Source: Chelativorans intermedius (GTDB lineage Bacteria > Pseudomonadota > Alphaproteobacteria > Rhizobiales > Rhizobiaceae). Taken from it: a stretch of DNA of 64,000 bases. Positions within the stretch are counted from its first letter, which is position 1. Each line of letters starts with the position of its first letter. Of this stretch, positions 38,432 to 44,030 are shown piece after piece. The translations under genes and the position numbers were made by a program. Location of the stretch: the NCBI RefSeq assembly GCF_025398255.1, contig NZ_JAODNW010000003.1:186001-250000 (forward strand). Direction: 5' to 3'. The notes beneath the pieces are model-generated. The model was not told the DNA's origin and did no database searches. It saw only the letters and a program-made list of their open reading frames with translations.

Positions 38432-39493
38432 CTACGCCAGACTTGCCGCCAGAAGCATGAGCCCCAGCACGAGGATGAGAAGCGCGCCGGCAATCTCGAT
38501 GCCGGCATGGATGCGCGCGCTCCATGCGCCGCCGCCGGCGATCGCCACTGCCCAGTTCTTGGCTGTCACGGCGAGTGTGGCGAGGATGGAGACGGTGATG
38601 GCCGTGCCGAGCGCCATGGCGAAGACGGAGACGATGCCGCCAAGCCACAACGCGTTGAGAAAGGAAAAGGTCAGCACGATGAGAGCGCCGGAACAGGGGC
38701 GCAACCCCACCGCGGCGACGGCCGACCAGCCCGTTTTCCAGTCGAGGCGCTCCCCGGCGAGCACCGTCGGGTCCGGCGCGTGGGCATGGCCGCAGGTGGG
38801 GCAGGCTTCGCCCGGCGCATGATCGTGATGGTCATGGTGATGATGGTGGTCCTCGCCCTCGCCGTGCCCATGATGGTGATGTTCTTCTTGGGCATGGGCG
38901 GCCGAGAGGCTGTGGGCGGCCGGCCGTGAAGGCCCTCCCTTCGCCACCAGATGGCGAAGCTTGCGCCACAGAAGCCAGGCACCGAAGGCGGCGATGAGCG
39001 CGAAGCTCGCACTTTCCAGAAAACGGGTGGCGTGCGTCATGGAAATGGCGGTCCCGCGCAGCGCCAGAAAGACCGCCGCCATGAGCAGTATGGCGGTGAT
39101 CGCCTGCATCGCGGCGGCAGCGAAGGACAGGAGGACGCCGCGCCTGAGCGTCACCTCGTTGGCGACCATATAGGAAGAGATCACCGCCTTGCCGTGGCCG
39201 GGGCCCGCCGCGTGGAACACGCCATAGGCGAAGGACAGGCCCACCAGCACCCACAATTGAGAGCCGTCCTGGCGCATGGCCTTCAGCGCGCCCGTCAGCG
39301 CCCGGTAGAAAGCCTGTTGCTGGGTGTTGATCCACTGCATGAGGCCGGCCAGAGGCCCCACGGGGGCGAGCGAAGGCTCGGCGGCGCCGATGCCGAGGGA
39401 GCTTTGGGCATGGGCGGGCAGCGCCAGGAGCGCCAGAACCCCGACAGCGAGCAGCAGCCTGGCCAGACCTGCCCTGGAGCTTAGGCTAGCCAT
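38432..39493 (-). CDS. NicO-family nickel/cobalt transporter
   Basis: 353 residues. A signal-like N-terminus is followed by about six membrane helices. The metal motif is FHAAGPGHGKAVIS and the second family block is LRPCSGALIVL. Between them lies a cytoplasmic or periplasmic loop (about 190-240) extremely rich in His, with Asp, Glu and two Cys (CPTCGHAHAPD), suited to metal capture. Export of Ni/Co (RcnA type) or uptake are both possible. Its start overlaps the DUF1007 gene end by 8 bp, so they are translationally coupled. Confidence 0.9.
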   Translation of the reverse strand: MASLSSRAGLARLLLAVGVLALLALPAHAQSSLGIGAAEPSLAPVGPLAGLMQWINTQQQAFYRALTGALKAMRQDGSQLWVLVGLSFAYGVFHAAGPGHGKAVISSYMVANEVTLRRGVLLSFAAAAMQAITAILLMAAVFLALRGTAISMTHATRFLESASFALIAAFGAWLLWRKLRHLVAKGGPSRPAAHSLSAAHAQEEHHHHGHGEGEDHHHHHDHHDHAPGEACPTCGHAHAPDPTVLAGERLDWKTGWSAVAAVGLRPCSGALIVLTFSFLNALWLGGIVSVFAMALGTAITVSILATLAVTAKNWAVAIAGGGAWSARIHAGIEIAGALLILVLGLMLLAASLA

Positions 39494-40139
39494 TGGCGTC
39501 GCACCGGATCTCGAGCTTGGTGGCGAAGATCTTGCTCAGGTCGTTGCCGCCCGGATCGTTGAAGAAGGCTTCAGTCAGCGTCTGCTGATTCTGGGCGATG
39601 GCTTCCTCGGGGTCGGGGCGGATGACGGCCCGGCTGCAGCCCTCGGGCAGGTTCTCGACATTCATGTAGCTGTCTTCCACGAAGTCTATGGCGGTGTAGA
39701 AGGTGGGGTCGTAGACGCCGAACTCCACCCTGCCCTGAAGGGGCATCGGGCCTGCGGGCCGCGACTCGAACAGGATGATGAGCTGGCCATCCACGAAATC
39801 GGTCATCAGCCGCTCGGGCGGCTGCATCCCGACGTCGCGGCCGTTGGCGGTGACGACCTGGAAGTAATTGAACTCGGCCAGCGATTCGTGGACGACGTCG
39901 GCAACTTCCTGAAGCTCCTCGGCGTCCAGGGTGAGGTCCTGGTTGCGGTCGAATTCGAGCAGCACCGTGCTGGAGAAGAGGTCGTCGAACCGCCACACAT
40001 GGCGCAGCGCCTCCACCTCGCGATTGCCGTTCACCATCACGTCGAGCCGCGCCTCGGCAAATACATGCGGATGGGCGAAGGCCGGTGTGCTCGCGGCACA
40101 CACAAGGGCGAGCGTTGCCATTCGCGTCCAACAATGCAT
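39486..40139 (-). CDS. DUF1007 periplasmic protein paired with NicO
   Basis: 217 residues. A signal peptide (to about CAASTPAFA) is followed at once by the motif HPHVFAEARL, a His-rich N-terminus that could bind metal once the signal is removed. A Cys pair (EGCSR and the C-terminal EIRCDANG) may be a disulfide. DUF1007 genes commonly sit with NicO transporters. Function is unknown beyond likely metal handling. The start could also be the ATG six codons later. Confidence 0.85.
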   Translation of the reverse strand: MHCWTRMATLALVCAASTPAFAHPHVFAEARLDVMVNGNREVEALRHVWRFDDLFSSTVLLEFDRNQDLTLDAEELQEVADVVHESLAEFNYFQVVTANGRDVGMQPPERLMTDFVDGQLIILFESRPAGPMPLQGRVEFGVYDPTFYTAIDFVEDSYMNVENLPEGCSRAVIRPDPEEAIAQNQQTLTEAFFNDPGGNDLSKIFATKLEIRCDANG

Positions 40140-40246
40140 GTGCAGTCGTCCCCCATCTGAGCCGAGAGGCGACTTGTCTATCACGAAGCAGGCGAAAATG
40201 GGACAGCGGAACGGGGCAGCGGCGGTTGTCCGCCGGCCGCCCGTTC

Positions 40247-41149
40247 TCAACCCCTGTCGCAGTTTTCCTTGAGCCAGCGGGCCATGAAATCCACGAGCGC
40301 GCGCACCTTGGCCGGCAGGTGGCGGCGATGCGGATAGACGGCGAAGATGCCGGCGCCATCGGTGATGTGCTCGTCGAGCAGCGTCACGAGGCGCCCCGCC
40401 TCGATCTCGGGCGCGGCGATGAAATCCGGCAGGAAGGCAAATCCCAGCCCCGCCACCGCGGCATTGCGCACGGCCAGCGGGCTGTTGACCTCGATGCGCG
40501 CGGAGACGGAGACGGTGAGCGGCGTGCCGTCACGCTCCCTGAAGGGCCAGTTCTGGCGGAAGCGGCCGTTGGTGTCCACGATGCAGGGCAGGCGCTCGAG
40601 GTCCCGCGGATGGGCAGGCCTGCCCACCTTTTCGATGAGCGCGGGGGCGGCGCAGAGCGGCAGGGTGAAAGGTGCCAGGCGCCGGGCAATCAGCGAGGAA
40701 TCCTCCAGCCTGGTGATGCGGATGGCAAGATCGAATCCTTCTTCCACCAGATCGACGAACCGGTCGTCGAGCTGGATGTCGAGCACGACCTCGGGATGGG
40801 CGGCCGCAAAGTCGATCAGCGATCGCCCGATGGGCGCGTCGGCGAAGGTGCGCGGTGCGGAAAGCCGGATGCGCCCCCTGATGTCGCCGGATGAGTCGCG
40901 AATGGTCTCGGCCAGGCTGTCGATTTCGCGCACGATCTCGACGGCCCGCCGGTAGTAGGTCTGGCCTGCCTCGGTGAGCGAGAATTGCCGCGTGGTGCGG
41001 TTGAGCAGCAGGGCGCCGAGCTCGTCCTCGAGTTCGCGCACATATTTCGACAACAGCGCCTTGGAACGGCCCACCTTGCGGGCGGCGGCGGAAAAGCCTT
41101 CCGCCTCGACCACGTCGATAAAGGCGCGCATGCGGGTCAGCGTGTCCAT
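40247..41149 (-). CDS. LysR-family transcriptional regulator
   Basis: 300 residues. The N-terminal winged helix-turn-helix (FIDVVEAEGFSAAARKVGRS, about 10-30) is followed by the LysR effector domain (about 90-295). The family is the CrgA/DsdC-like group with PRTFADAPIGRSLIDFAAAHP. GGAGGGGA precedes the ATG. It begins 14 bp after the amidase stop on the same strand, so it may be coexpressed with, and regulate, that gene. The effector is unknown. Confidence 0.92.
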   Translation of the reverse strand: MDTLTRMRAFIDVVEAEGFSAAARKVGRSKALLSKYVRELEDELGALLLNRTTRQFSLTEAGQTYYRRAVEIVREIDSLAETIRDSSGDIRGRIRLSAPRTFADAPIGRSLIDFAAAHPEVVLDIQLDDRFVDLVEEGFDLAIRITRLEDSSLIARRLAPFTLPLCAAPALIEKVGRPAHPRDLERLPCIVDTNGRFRQNWPFRERDGTPLTVSVSARIEVNSPLAVRNAAVAGLGFAFLPDFIAAPEIEAGRLVTLLDEHITDGAGIFAVYPHRRHLPAKVRALVDFMARWLKENCDRG

Positions 41150-41163
41150 GCCGGGTCCCCTCC

Positions 41164-42345
41164 TCAGGCCAGGATGGCGGCAGCCAGGCGGATGAGCTGC
41201 CGGTCGCTTCCCGGCGGGCCGAGCAGCGAGATGCCGAAGGGCGCGCCATGCACCTCACCCAGGGGAAGGGTGATCTGGGGCCAGCCCAGCATGCCGGCGA
41301 GACAGGTGAGCGGCGCTGCCTTCTCCCGATAGGCGTCGAATTCGGGCTGGGTGGCGATCTTCAGCGGTGCGGCGCTGGGCGCAGAAGGCAAGACCACCAC
41401 CATGTCCGGGTCCATGAGCGCCGTGAAATCGGCGATGACGTCGCGGCGGAAGCGGTGTGCCGCCTCAGCCGTCGCCGCGCTCACCGAGCGGGCATAGGCG
41501 AAGCGCTCCCTCACGCCGGGACCCAGACCGCGCTCCCCTCGGGAGAGGAAGGCGCCGTGCGCCTGCCATGCCTCGTGGGCCTGGATCTCCTTGAAATGCT
41601 CGAACAGCTCGCCCGTCGGGCAGGGCAGGGCGAGGAAGCCTGCCGGCCGCTCGAAATGTTCCAGCACGCGCCTCAGCATCGCGCCATAGGCCGTGCGCTC
41701 CTCCTGTCCGAAGAGCAACGTCTCCATTTCGGCGATGCGCACGGGGCGGGCGAGGGGCACCTCATGGCTGTCGGCACCCAGCAAAACGTCGCCCACGGCG
41801 GCATAGGTGGCGATGTCGCGGGCAAACCAGCCGAAGGTATCGAATGAAGGGGCGAGCGGCATGGCCCCCTGCATGGAGATGCGCCCATGGGTGGTGCGCA
41901 GGCCGACCAGCCCACAGAACGAGGCGGGCACGCGGATCGAGCCGTTGGTGTCCGATCCGATGGCGATGTCGGCGAGACCGCCGGCGACGGCGGCCGCCGA
42001 GCCGGAGGAGGAGCCGCCCGTCACCCGATCCCGCGCCCGCGGGTTCACCGGCGCGGGAAAGTGTGCGTTCATGCCGATCATGGAGTAGGCGAGCTCGTCG
42101 GTCTGGGTTTTGCCCAGGAACCGCGCCCCGGCATCGAGCAGCGCCTGGATGGCGGGGGCCGTGGTCCGGGCGATGCCGCTCTCGGCGCCCCTCTGCGGGT
42201 TGCCTCCGCCCGTCGGATAGCCCACCACGTCGTAGATGTCCTTGACGGCGAGGGTAAGGCCCATCAACGGCCCTTCCGGCGAAGAGGAGACCGCCGCCTG
42301 GGCGTAATCCAGAAAGGCATTCAACGCATCTCGTGTCGCCGTCAT
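41164..42345 (-). CDS. Amidase-signature hydrolase
   Basis: 393 residues. The catalytic Lys is in TLAVKDIYDVVG and the Ser-cisSer pair in TGGSSSGSAAAVAGG, with GSDTNGSIRVPASFCGLVGL following, so the Ser-Ser-Lys triad is complete. It should hydrolyse amides or act as a GatA-like subunit. No GatB/C is nearby, so a stand-alone amidase is more likely. GAGGAG lies five nt before the ATG. It is divergent from the odc leader. Confidence 0.93.
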   Translation of the reverse strand: MTATRDALNAFLDYAQAAVSSSPEGPLMGLTLAVKDIYDVVGYPTGGGNPQRGAESGIARTTAPAIQALLDAGARFLGKTQTDELAYSMIGMNAHFPAPVNPRARDRVTGGSSSGSAAAVAGGLADIAIGSDTNGSIRVPASFCGLVGLRTTHGRISMQGAMPLAPSFDTFGWFARDIATYAAVGDVLLGADSHEVPLARPVRIAEMETLLFGQEERTAYGAMLRRVLEHFERPAGFLALPCPTGELFEHFKEIQAHEAWQAHGAFLSRGERGLGPGVRERFAYARSVSAATAEAAHRFRRDVIADFTALMDPDMVVVLPSAPSAAPLKIATQPEFDAYREKAAPLTCLAGMLGWPQITLPLGEVHGAPFGISLLGPPGSDRQLIRLAAAILA

Positions 42346-42420
42346 TCCTGCTCCTCGGTGGGTTTGCGGCCGACAATCGGCGCTTGCTCGAAATTTTTCA
42401 AGCCGAGGCCGATTTTTCAT

Positions 42421-42449
42421 TTGATTGTGACAGGCAAGGCGCCTATATC
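42421..42449 (+). promoter_or_regulatory. Likely promoter of the odc leader transcript
   Basis: TTGATT (42421-42426), 17-bp spacer, TATATC (42444-42449). Transcription would start near 42456 and give a leader of about 440 nt before the decarboxylase. A 9-bp inverted repeat with one bulge (42433-42459) covers the -10 and could be an operator. Confidence 0.5.
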
Positions 42450-42469
42450 CGCGCCTGCCCAAAGTCGCA

Positions 42470-42839
42470 CGTGCCTGTGGGTGTCCGCCGGGCCTCGGAA
42501 ATGGCGAGGAAACCGGTAAGGTACCTGGACCTAACCCCTCCAGTCGGTTTCGCGGCCAACCACGAAACCGAGGACACCTTGAAGCAACGACGGTGCGGGC
42601 CTTTCTGGTGTCTGCCGGTTGTCCAAAGACCGGGGTTACTAAAGAGGCACACCTTCATTGCCGGCAGTGCGGATGGGAATCTCCCATACCAAAGCTGAGG
42701 CAGACAAAGCGGAGCTTTCGCCGAGAGGCGGGCGCTCATTGTCATGCGTTAAGCGCATCCACGGGTTTCCGGCAACTTCCACCCTCCGGCCCGTCGATCC
42801 GTTTGCCGCATCCTTTGTCCACCGCGGGCCGATGGCCCG
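42470..42839 (+). ncRNA. speF-type structured leader upstream of ornithine decarboxylase
   Basis: A long, highly base-paired 5' leader without coding character. Clear stems: 42480-42486 with 42572-42578 (closing a multibranch region), 42545-42552 with 42563-42570, 42607-42616 with 42646-42653, 42673-42678 with 42682-42687, and a final CGGGCC-GAT-GGCCCG hairpin (42825-42839) 57 nt ahead of the odc start. The position before an alphaproteobacterial speF gene and the length fit the known speF RNA element. It probably controls odc by attenuation or translation in response to a polyamine or ornithine. Ends are approximate; a covariance search would settle identity. Confidence 0.72.
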
Positions 42840-42896
42840 TTGAGCTTGAGCTTCCAGCAAGGGCGGCCTGCCGCCGCCGGAGAAGGAGATACCCCG

Positions 42897-44030
42897 ATGG
42901 CCACGCAGCGCATTCTCGACTTTCTCGCAACCCGACGTCCCGAGGGGCCCTGCCTCGTCGTCGATCTCGACGTCGTGCGCGAGAACTATCGCGCCTTCGA
43001 GCGGGCCCTGCCCGATTCCAGGATCTTTTATGCGGTGAAGGCCAACCCGGCGCCGGAGATCCTGAAGCTTCTGGCCGATCTCGGCTCCTCCTTCGACACG
43101 GCCTCCGTGCCCGAGATCGAGATGGCGCTCGATGCGGGCGCGACCCCTGATCGCATCTCCTTCGGCAACACCATCAAGAAGGAGCGCGACATTGCCCGCG
43201 CCTTCGATCTCGGCATCCGGCTCTTTGCCGTCGACTGCAAGGAGGAGGTGGAGAAGATCGCCCGTGCCGCGCCGGGTTCGCGCGTGTTCTGCCGCGTGCT
43301 GACCGATGGGGCGGGTGCGGAGTGGCCGCTGTCGCGCAAGTTCGGCTGCGTGCCGGAGATGGCCGTCGACGTGCTGCGCCATGCGGCGGCGCTCGGCCTC
43401 GATGCCTATGGCGTATCCTTCCACGTTGGTTCTCAGCAGACGGATCTTTCCGCCTGGGACCGCGCGCTGGGCGATGCGCGCTTCGTCTTCGAGGCGCTGG
43501 CCGAGCAGGGTATCGTGCTCAGGATGGTCAACATGGGCGGCGGTTTCCCCACGCGCTACCTGCGCGACGTGCCGGCGGCCCAGGCCTACGGCCAGGCGAT
43601 CTTTACCGCGCTCAGCAAGCATTTCGGCAACCGGCTGCCGGAGACCATCATAGAGCCGGGCCGCGGCATGGTGGGCAATGCCGGCGTCATCAAGTCCGAG
43701 GTGGTGCTGATCTCCCGCAAGTCGGAAGACGATGCGGTGCGCTGGGTCTATCTCGACATCGGCAAGTTCGGCGGACTGGCCGAGACGATGGACGAGGCGA
43801 TCCGCTATCCGCTCGTCACCAGGCACGATGGCGAGGAAACCGCGCCCTGCGTGGTGGCAGGCCCCACCTGCGATTCGGCCGACGTCCTCTACGAGAAGAC
43901 GCCCTATCCGCTGCCCCTGTCGCTGACGGTGGGCGACGAGGTGCTGATCGAGGGGACGGGCGCCTACACCACCACCTATGCCTCGGTGGCCTTCAACGGT
44001 TTTGCGCCGCTGCGATCCTACGTGATCTGA
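42897..44030 (+). CDS. speF: Ornithine/lysine decarboxylase (fold III)
   Basis: A 377-residue PLP enzyme of the eukaryote-like ODC fold. It decarboxylates ornithine to putrescine (lysine to cadaverine in some relatives). The PLP lysine is Lys48 in FYAVKANP. HVGSQQTD, GGGFPTRY and EPGRGMV bind PLP phosphate, and the catalytic cysteine is in GPTCDSADVL. The start at 42897 has AAGGAG eight nt upstream. It sits behind the long structured leader and 96 bp ahead of a GNAT gene. Putrescine from here would feed homospermidine synthase at 19067. Confidence 0.95.
   Translation: MATQRILDFLATRRPEGPCLVVDLDVVRENYRAFERALPDSRIFYAVKANPAPEILKLLADLGSSFDTASVPEIEMALDAGATPDRISFGNTIKKERDIARAFDLGIRLFAVDCKEEVEKIARAAPGSRVFCRVLTDGAGAEWPLSRKFGCVPEMAVDVLRHAAALGLDAYGVSFHVGSQQTDLSAWDRALGDARFVFEALAEQGIVLRMVNMGGGFPTRYLRDVPAAQAYGQAIFTALSKHFGNRLPETIIEPGRGMVGNAGVIKSEVVLISRKSEDDAVRWVYLDIGKFGGLAETMDEAIRYPLVTRHDGEETAPCVVAGPTCDSADVLYEKTPYPLPLSLTVGDEVLIEGTGAYTTTYASVAFNGFAPLRSYVI

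Follow-up and report, generated by a model that had tools for sequence, protein, structure and literature searches.

The window (the whole 64,000-nt stretch of Chelativorans intermedius DNA analysed) contains, at 42421-42896, an interval that runs from a -35-like TTGATT to the base immediately 5' of a decarboxylase ATG and takes in a promoter, a leader of 440 nt and the beginning of the decarboxylase gene (Table 1). The encoded protein is of the ornithine/DAP/arginine decarboxylase fold class by its two Pfam domains; NCBIfam returned only matches below the cut-off, the top one being lysA. Among the collected loci, the nearest named relative is Chelativorans salis, with a decarboxylase identity of 90.9%. 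Upstream, positions 39486-42345 hold a DUF1007-like gene, a LysR-type gene (both labelled by synteny alone) and an amidase (NCBIfam PRK08310). The gene order in Sinorhizobium meliloti (locus L258) is that of the window minus the amidase, the leader being followed by odc2 and an N-acetyltransferase gene. This 3.7-Mb record of strain Ak57 is labelled plasmid pSymB, yet it carries the odc2 locus, which the available part of PMC2573895 tabulates among the chromosomal elements of strain 1021; the replicon is possibly mislabelled. Another locus (L244) lies on a probably misbinned contig with the title Candidatus Kuenenia stuttgartiensis MAG (CALQFM020000020.1), where this alphaproteobacterial leader and decarboxylase (80% identical) are found.

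Table 1. Features of the leader and of the gene that follows it, in window coordinates.
Feature	Position	Strand	Basis or remark
Sigma70-like promoter	42421-42448	+	TTGATT 42421-42426, CTATAT 42443-42448; sequence
ar45 (RF02347)	42457-42604	+	cmscan 163.5 bits, cut-off 40, E 6.2e-38; model 1-148 in full
Near-invariant 5' strand, GCCCAAAGUCGCACGUGCC	42457-42475	+	TCGCACGTGCC exact in 203/212 leaders
P2 stem, GGGUGUCC / GGACACC, clade-variable insert on top	42479-42578	+	arms 42479-42486 and 42572-42578
Rod outer helix, 5' arm GCAA-C-GA-C-GGUG, within ar45	42584-42595	+	pairs with 42650-42661
Rod inner helix, 5' arm with pyrimidine tract, GCCUUUCUGG	42599-42608	+	pairs with 3' arm in 96.5% of cells
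speF leader (RF00518), current Rfam bounds	42613-42767	+	cmscan 85.7 bits, cut-off 37, E 1.7e-19
P3, rod tip hairpin, UCCAA loop	42613-42635	+	all five tested pairs show changes on both sides
Rod inner helix, 3' arm, CUAAAGAGGC	42639-42648	+	comparison of relatives
Rod outer helix, 3' arm CACC-U-UC-A-UUGC, within speF	42650-42661	+	comparison and tree
P5 hairpin GG-A-UGGGA / UCCCAU-A-CC, 3' of GUGCGG	42671-42690	+	sequence; columns 148-154 covary, z 5.4
P6 hairpin, CCGG 42769-42772 / CCGG 42786-42789	42763-42792	+	relatives; contains GGCCC 42788-42792
Final hairpin CGGGCC-GAT-GGCCCG	42825-42839	+	CGGGCC 42825-42830, GGCCCG 42834-42839; no U-tract
Shine-Dalgarno AAGGAGA	42883-42889	+	sequence
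Ornithine-decarboxylase-type gene, 377 aa	42897-44030	+	Pfam PF02784 and PF00278; odc2 equivalently placed in S. meliloti

Side by side in the leader lie two Rfam families, ar45 and speF, neither of which has a second copy in the genome; scanning 42000-43200 permissively revealed no further family. The predicted fold of 42457-42899 beats all 100 of 100 dinucleotide shuffles (z = -3.6). The first-pass annotation had recognised a speF RNA element with at least five stems in about 370 nt, an identification borne out by the covariance-model search, with well over five stems found. It had overlooked ar45, which makes up the first 148 nt, as well as a family-spanning rod described below; its remark that the ligand and mechanism of the alphaproteobacterial element are not settled agrees with the available portions of PMC1273637 and PMC7717549. 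The leader is a well-preserved member of a known family, orphan since 2005, the borders of which are now clearer.

Relatives were drawn from a sample of 385 genomes across the class (hits taken at E <= 0.001), a sample of the order, in which speF occurs in 205 of 397 genomes, part of these 205 entering the leader set, and a scan of named genomes giving at least 119 loci. Removal of 14 duplicates (L002, L017-L029) reduced 257 loci to 243, of which 237 have the decarboxylase gene; in the other six the DNA stops at most 280 nt past the motif. Setting aside these six loci without a decarboxylase match and four with a motif variant left 233, and subtracting 11 that lacked the 5' block or the ATG by rule and 10 identical ones yielded 212 distinct leaders. 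Covariation counts and RNAalifold runs on the rod used 87 of 167 distinct rods, and P6 counts were restricted to the region 3' of P5.

In the class sample, speF was found in 15 genomes, ar45 in 14 and both in 13, and the gap separating the matches was 7-9 nt in those 13. The ar45 model itself reports 13 of the 15 speF genomes, and a pattern test finds the ar45 blocks in order in all 15; the two genomes without a model match (G283, G361) have the ar45 strands and a larger insert. The lone ar45-only genome (G260) has a match below the cut-off, and its locus (L029) has no decarboxylase match. This constant order and spacing argue against ar45 and speF being separate neighbouring genes, that is, a small RNA gene followed by a leader with its own promoter, as does a helix with compensatory changes that links the two. 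Such an arrangement is very improbable here, even though Northern blots in Bartonella are reported to show ar45 expressed independently of speF (available text of PMC7717549) and S. meliloti produces a SmrC45 RNA (PMC2780559, as far as its available text goes).

The linking helix belongs to a rod at 42584-42661, where, across the 212 leaders, the speF core (42639-42661) is the pairing partner of the final ar45 strand (42584-42608). Mutual information over these leaders couples the base after GACG in ar45 to a base of the speF loop (z = 13.6), and the combinations seen fall into families: GGUG/CACC, GUAG/CUAC, GUAA/UUAC, GGAU/GUCC, and GAAC with GUUU or GUUC. Folds of single leaders give the outer helix as GCAA-C-GA-C-GNNN with NNNC-n-UC-n-UUGC; by minimum energy, at least three of the four GNNN pairs form in 200 of the 212, an ar45-type closure in 5 and neither in 7. 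A fixed pairing rule without spacer correction pairs 0.925 of cells in 210/212 leaders, against 0.63 when shuffled; sliding it by 1-3 gives 0.30-0.69, with 0.80 at -3, a value from only 19 countable leaders.

The outer helix was also followed on the decarboxylase tree, with the partner position set by rule and four named loop types treated as having no spacer nucleotide (208 leaders with long enough proteins, L197 dropped; 798 of 828 cells pair). The second GNNN pair changed nine times on each side, eight of them on the same branch and always from pair to pair. The third pair shows one double change and three losses, the fourth two double changes and 16 one-sided losses, and the first only six one-sided changes with pairing kept. 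In the inner helix, GCYUUUYUGG pairs with CUGAAGAGGC in 96.5% of cells, compared with 46-69% when slid. A U at tract position 7 faces A or G in 156/156 leaders; a C at that position (56 leaders) faces A, U or C.

RNAalifold run on the 87 rods with no input structure recovered the rod with 19 pairs. Across these sequences, 96.6% of cells are paired, against 89.2% in shuffled and 39-58% in slid arrangements; double-change cells number 124 against 37 shuffled, and the covariation score is 0.253 against 0.131 shuffled and at most 0.069 slid. Eight rod pairs carry a double change, a number that does not exceed the shuffled level (6.8; 123 of 500), and among the 87 no double change falls in the inner helix. 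A separate RNAalifold run on concatenated blocks of the 212 leaders gave a weak, different structure (-20.2); it mixed segments and omitted the insert, and was set aside. From the comparison of relatives, the identity of the leader and the rod are both established.

The ar45-speF covariation had been entertained as a new pseudoknot, a candidate ruled out by folding, which places it in the outer helix of a plain rod; the claim of novelty was dropped because the rod matches the description of Corbino et al. 2005. In the available text of that paper (PMC1273637), a stem topped by a large insertion is followed by about 80 conserved nt forming a long, bulged stem-loop whose outer pairs are invariant. 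A bulged stem-loop of this kind and size is present at 42584-42661, and, judged from the text, the rod is very probably that structure. Since the 3' strand of ar45 pairs with the speF core in the rod, the present Rfam border splits one hairpin, and on these sequence grounds the two entries are halves of one folded element. Should ar45 and speF be one RNA, the first G of ar45 is where RNAs for binding tests and reporter constructs ought to begin; constructs cut at either inner Rfam border disrupt the rod.

At the 5' end, CTTG lies about 26-50 nt upstream of the element in 171 of 211 relatives, and CTTG-N17-21-TA in 147 of 211. A strict consensus promoter scan of 42300-43000 found none, inside the leader or elsewhere, missing the TTGATT/CTATAT promoter too. 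The leader opens with a near-invariant strand whose GCCC is in register in 192/212 leaders, and the transcript start is taken, by analogy with S. meliloti, as the first G of this GCCC. In P2, columns 31-44, 27-48 and 32-43 covary. A long-range pairing of UCGCAC in the 5' strand with GUGCGG in the speF core, proposed by the minimum-energy fold, met mixed evidence and was set aside: one double change (L130), G-U pairs in L079 and L126 and A-U pairs in L100 and L116 fit it, whereas GAGCGG in ten leaders (Bradyrhizobium in every title), GTGAGG in three, GCGTGG in two and an outer mismatch in three more (L051, L179, L198) do not.

For SmelC706, the ar45 RNA of S. meliloti, deep sequencing gives a length of 148 nt in the available part of PMC2873474, where a 2010 table sets it beside RF00518 with a figure of 100, which, the header lying outside that part, we read as per cent overlap. 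From this equal length of 148 nt we infer the first G of GCCC to be the 5' end of the RNA. Counted from there in locus L258, 148 nt end in GCGGGCCTTT and 181 nt in GCCGGGGTT, so that the shorter RNA appears to end at the place matching the pyrimidine tract of the window. This tract (42601-42606) is TTTTTT in 143 of the 212 leaders and CTTTCT in 56, including the window. That most leaders keep a U-tract though the rod would tolerate C suggests that the tract has another use besides pairing, be it as an RNA end or as an Hfq site.

One such use would be transcription attenuation at the ar45 end: the first four nucleotides, GCCC, would pair with GGGC just before the U-tract and release ar45, and if this pairing were prevented, polymerase would continue, the rod would take up the tract and decarboxylase would be made. 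The frequency of TTTTTT where rod pairing would also permit C is in keeping with this, as are the U.G pairs kept in the rod (for example 84/87 at columns 27-79), the GGG before the tract, invariant in 87 rods though two of its Gs are unpaired there, the presence of GGGC in 212/212 leaders opposite the in-register GCCC, and the 148-nt S. meliloti RNA, which would end exactly at the tract. However, the closing stem has just four G-C pairs, so nearly invariant that covariation is no test; the further Rfam stem GUCG:CGAC is fully formable in only 71/212 leaders; the C-interrupted tract is found in the window and 55 others; an earlier paper, in its available text, put the end at 181 nt rather than 148 (PMC2780559); and a consensus terminator scan finds nothing at the tract. 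Attenuation at this site is a possibility of lesser weight. Alternatively, a double-strand-specific RNase could cut the read-through rod, leaving a 3' end in the tract and a cut mRNA leader, with ar45 as the product. The rod offers two ten-pair helices, one of which encloses the reported ar45 end; we consider such cleavage improbable.

Further downstream, the P6 loop is mostly UCUCCA in relatives and is complementary to the Shine-Dalgarno (SD) sequence. A wider loop motif is present in 180/212 leaders and absent in 32; among the 180, a stem of at least four pairs forms in 173, with 108 distinct stems (shuffled flanks: mean 98.4, highest 106), and with strict UCUCCA a hairpin forms in 122 of 127 (shuffled mean 63.4, highest 73). 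The loop matches the SD region over at least 5 nt in 128/173 leaders, compared with 70/173 when the SD letters are shuffled and 18/171 for random 14-mers. In the window, the loop CAACUUCCACCCU matches the SD over just 4 nt, and in the thermodynamic fold the partners of the SD are three other segments (probabilities of 0.2-0.4), with no SD-P6 pairing above 0.2. No covariation was seen between P6 loop and SD, both sides being conserved. The predicted mean unpaired probability of the SD, 0.25 (177 of 212 leaders), was an uncontrolled value and was set aside. The comparisons with relatives are suggestive of P6 masking the SD, short of proof.

Other short segments recur around these elements. Positions 42607-42612 read GGUGUC in the window and GGUCUC in most aligned relatives; the rod leaves its final four letters unpaired, and the segment is complementary to the SD (GGAGAC/U), being one of the predicted SD partners in the window fold at a probability of about 0.3-0.4. 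UCCA(A)-like motifs recur at 42622-42626 (P3 loop), 42689-42692 (after P5) and, in relatives, in the P6 loop (42777-42781 in window coordinates).

The first-pass annotation had proposed that the final CGGGCC/GGCCCG hairpin competes with an upstream GGCCC near 42788 in a terminator/antiterminator switch. Both segments exist, and a similar GCGGGC-type stem is common to the window and three close relatives (L157, L158, L237), but the GGCCC belongs to the conserved P6. The sequence directly 3' of the hairpin is TTGAGCTTGAG, with no U-tract, and a terminator scan of 42300-43000 returned 0 sites. The TTTGTC preceding this site occurs in 47/212 leaders, and a hairpin of at least five pairs follows it in 43 of the 47, only somewhat above shuffled sequences (mean 34.9, highest 40); TTTT comes within the next 10 nt after one of the 43. 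In Rhizobium-type leaders different stems, often CUCCGG/CCGGAG, occupy this place. An intrinsic terminator at this hairpin is hardly credible, and the switch is not supported; some hairpin may be kept at the site in part of the family, though not as an intrinsic terminator. The pyrimidine tract and P6 are better candidates for control.

We somewhat favour a reading in which ar45, speF and the decarboxylase gene share one transcript. A single promoter would give one RNA from about 42457, folding into P2 with its variable insert, next the rod that bridges the 3' part of ar45 and the speF core, and finally P5 and P6. By its position, the leader would act in cis on decarboxylase output, most likely through ribosome access: in most relatives tested the P6 loop could pair with the SD, as could the GGUCUC of the rod, the complementarity being partly shown. 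Some transcripts would end early at the pyrimidine tract, by termination or by cleavage, as published RNA lengths suggest, and constitute the ar45/SmrC45 small RNA, and the near-invariant 5' strand and the rod loops would form a candidate sensing part. Against this reading stand the 4-nt P6 match in the window, the conserved loop and SD with no covariation between them, the window fold that pairs the SD elsewhere, the leaders without the loop motif, the count of rod pairs with a double change, which is at shuffle level, and the treatment of ar45 in the available literature as independent, Hfq-bound and perhaps trans-acting (PMC2848018, PMC7717549). A more elaborate version is conceivable, though we hold it to be rather unlikely: the first four nucleotides would serve as the ar45 terminator arm, and in read-through RNA the U-tract would be locked by the SD-like GAAGAGG of the speF core, so that each transcript would become either a free Hfq-bound ar45 or an odc mRNA. 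Released ar45 could then pair in trans, GCAACGACGNNN to NNNCnUCnUUGC, within the leader of odc mRNA copies.

In gammaproteobacteria, the ornithine decarboxylase gene speF is regulated by an arrest-peptide leader, SpeFL. The window leader resembles it in its presumed regulation of an ornithine decarboxylase gene from a leader, but here single-nucleotide indels among relatives, in the core loop that joins AGGC to TTGCC, speak against a conserved reading frame through the core, and the upstream reading frames at 42673-42840, 42593-43147 and 42333-42695 have no Pfam match. With the alphaproteobacterial speF element as described in the available text of PMC1273637, the leader shares covariance-model family, kind of downstream gene and overall architecture; P6 falls in a part for which that text could not assign structures confidently, and may already be in print, as Greenlee et al. 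2018 are said, in the accessible portion of PMC7266159, to add sequence and structure to speF. The 2005 construct spanned -400 to +3 in Agrobacterium tumefaciens, and according to the same text none of the six polyamine-pathway metabolites tried by in-line probing (ornithine, lysine, diaminopimelate, putrescine, cadaverine and spermidine) bound measurably. In our set, the S. meliloti leader (L258) is 394 nt long, and those of two A. vitis genomes have 414 and 419 nt. Rfam 15 begins the family at 42613, inside the 2005 stem-loop. As for ar45 (SmrC45, SmelC706), it co-purifies with Hfq according to the available text of PMC2848018, and in Bartonella it is reportedly expressed separately, with speF reading through into the gene (PMC7717549, available part). 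The window matches all 148 positions of the ar45 model, but ar45 is taken here as the first 148 nt of a leader, and the GUCG:CGAC stem of the Rfam model does not hold generally.
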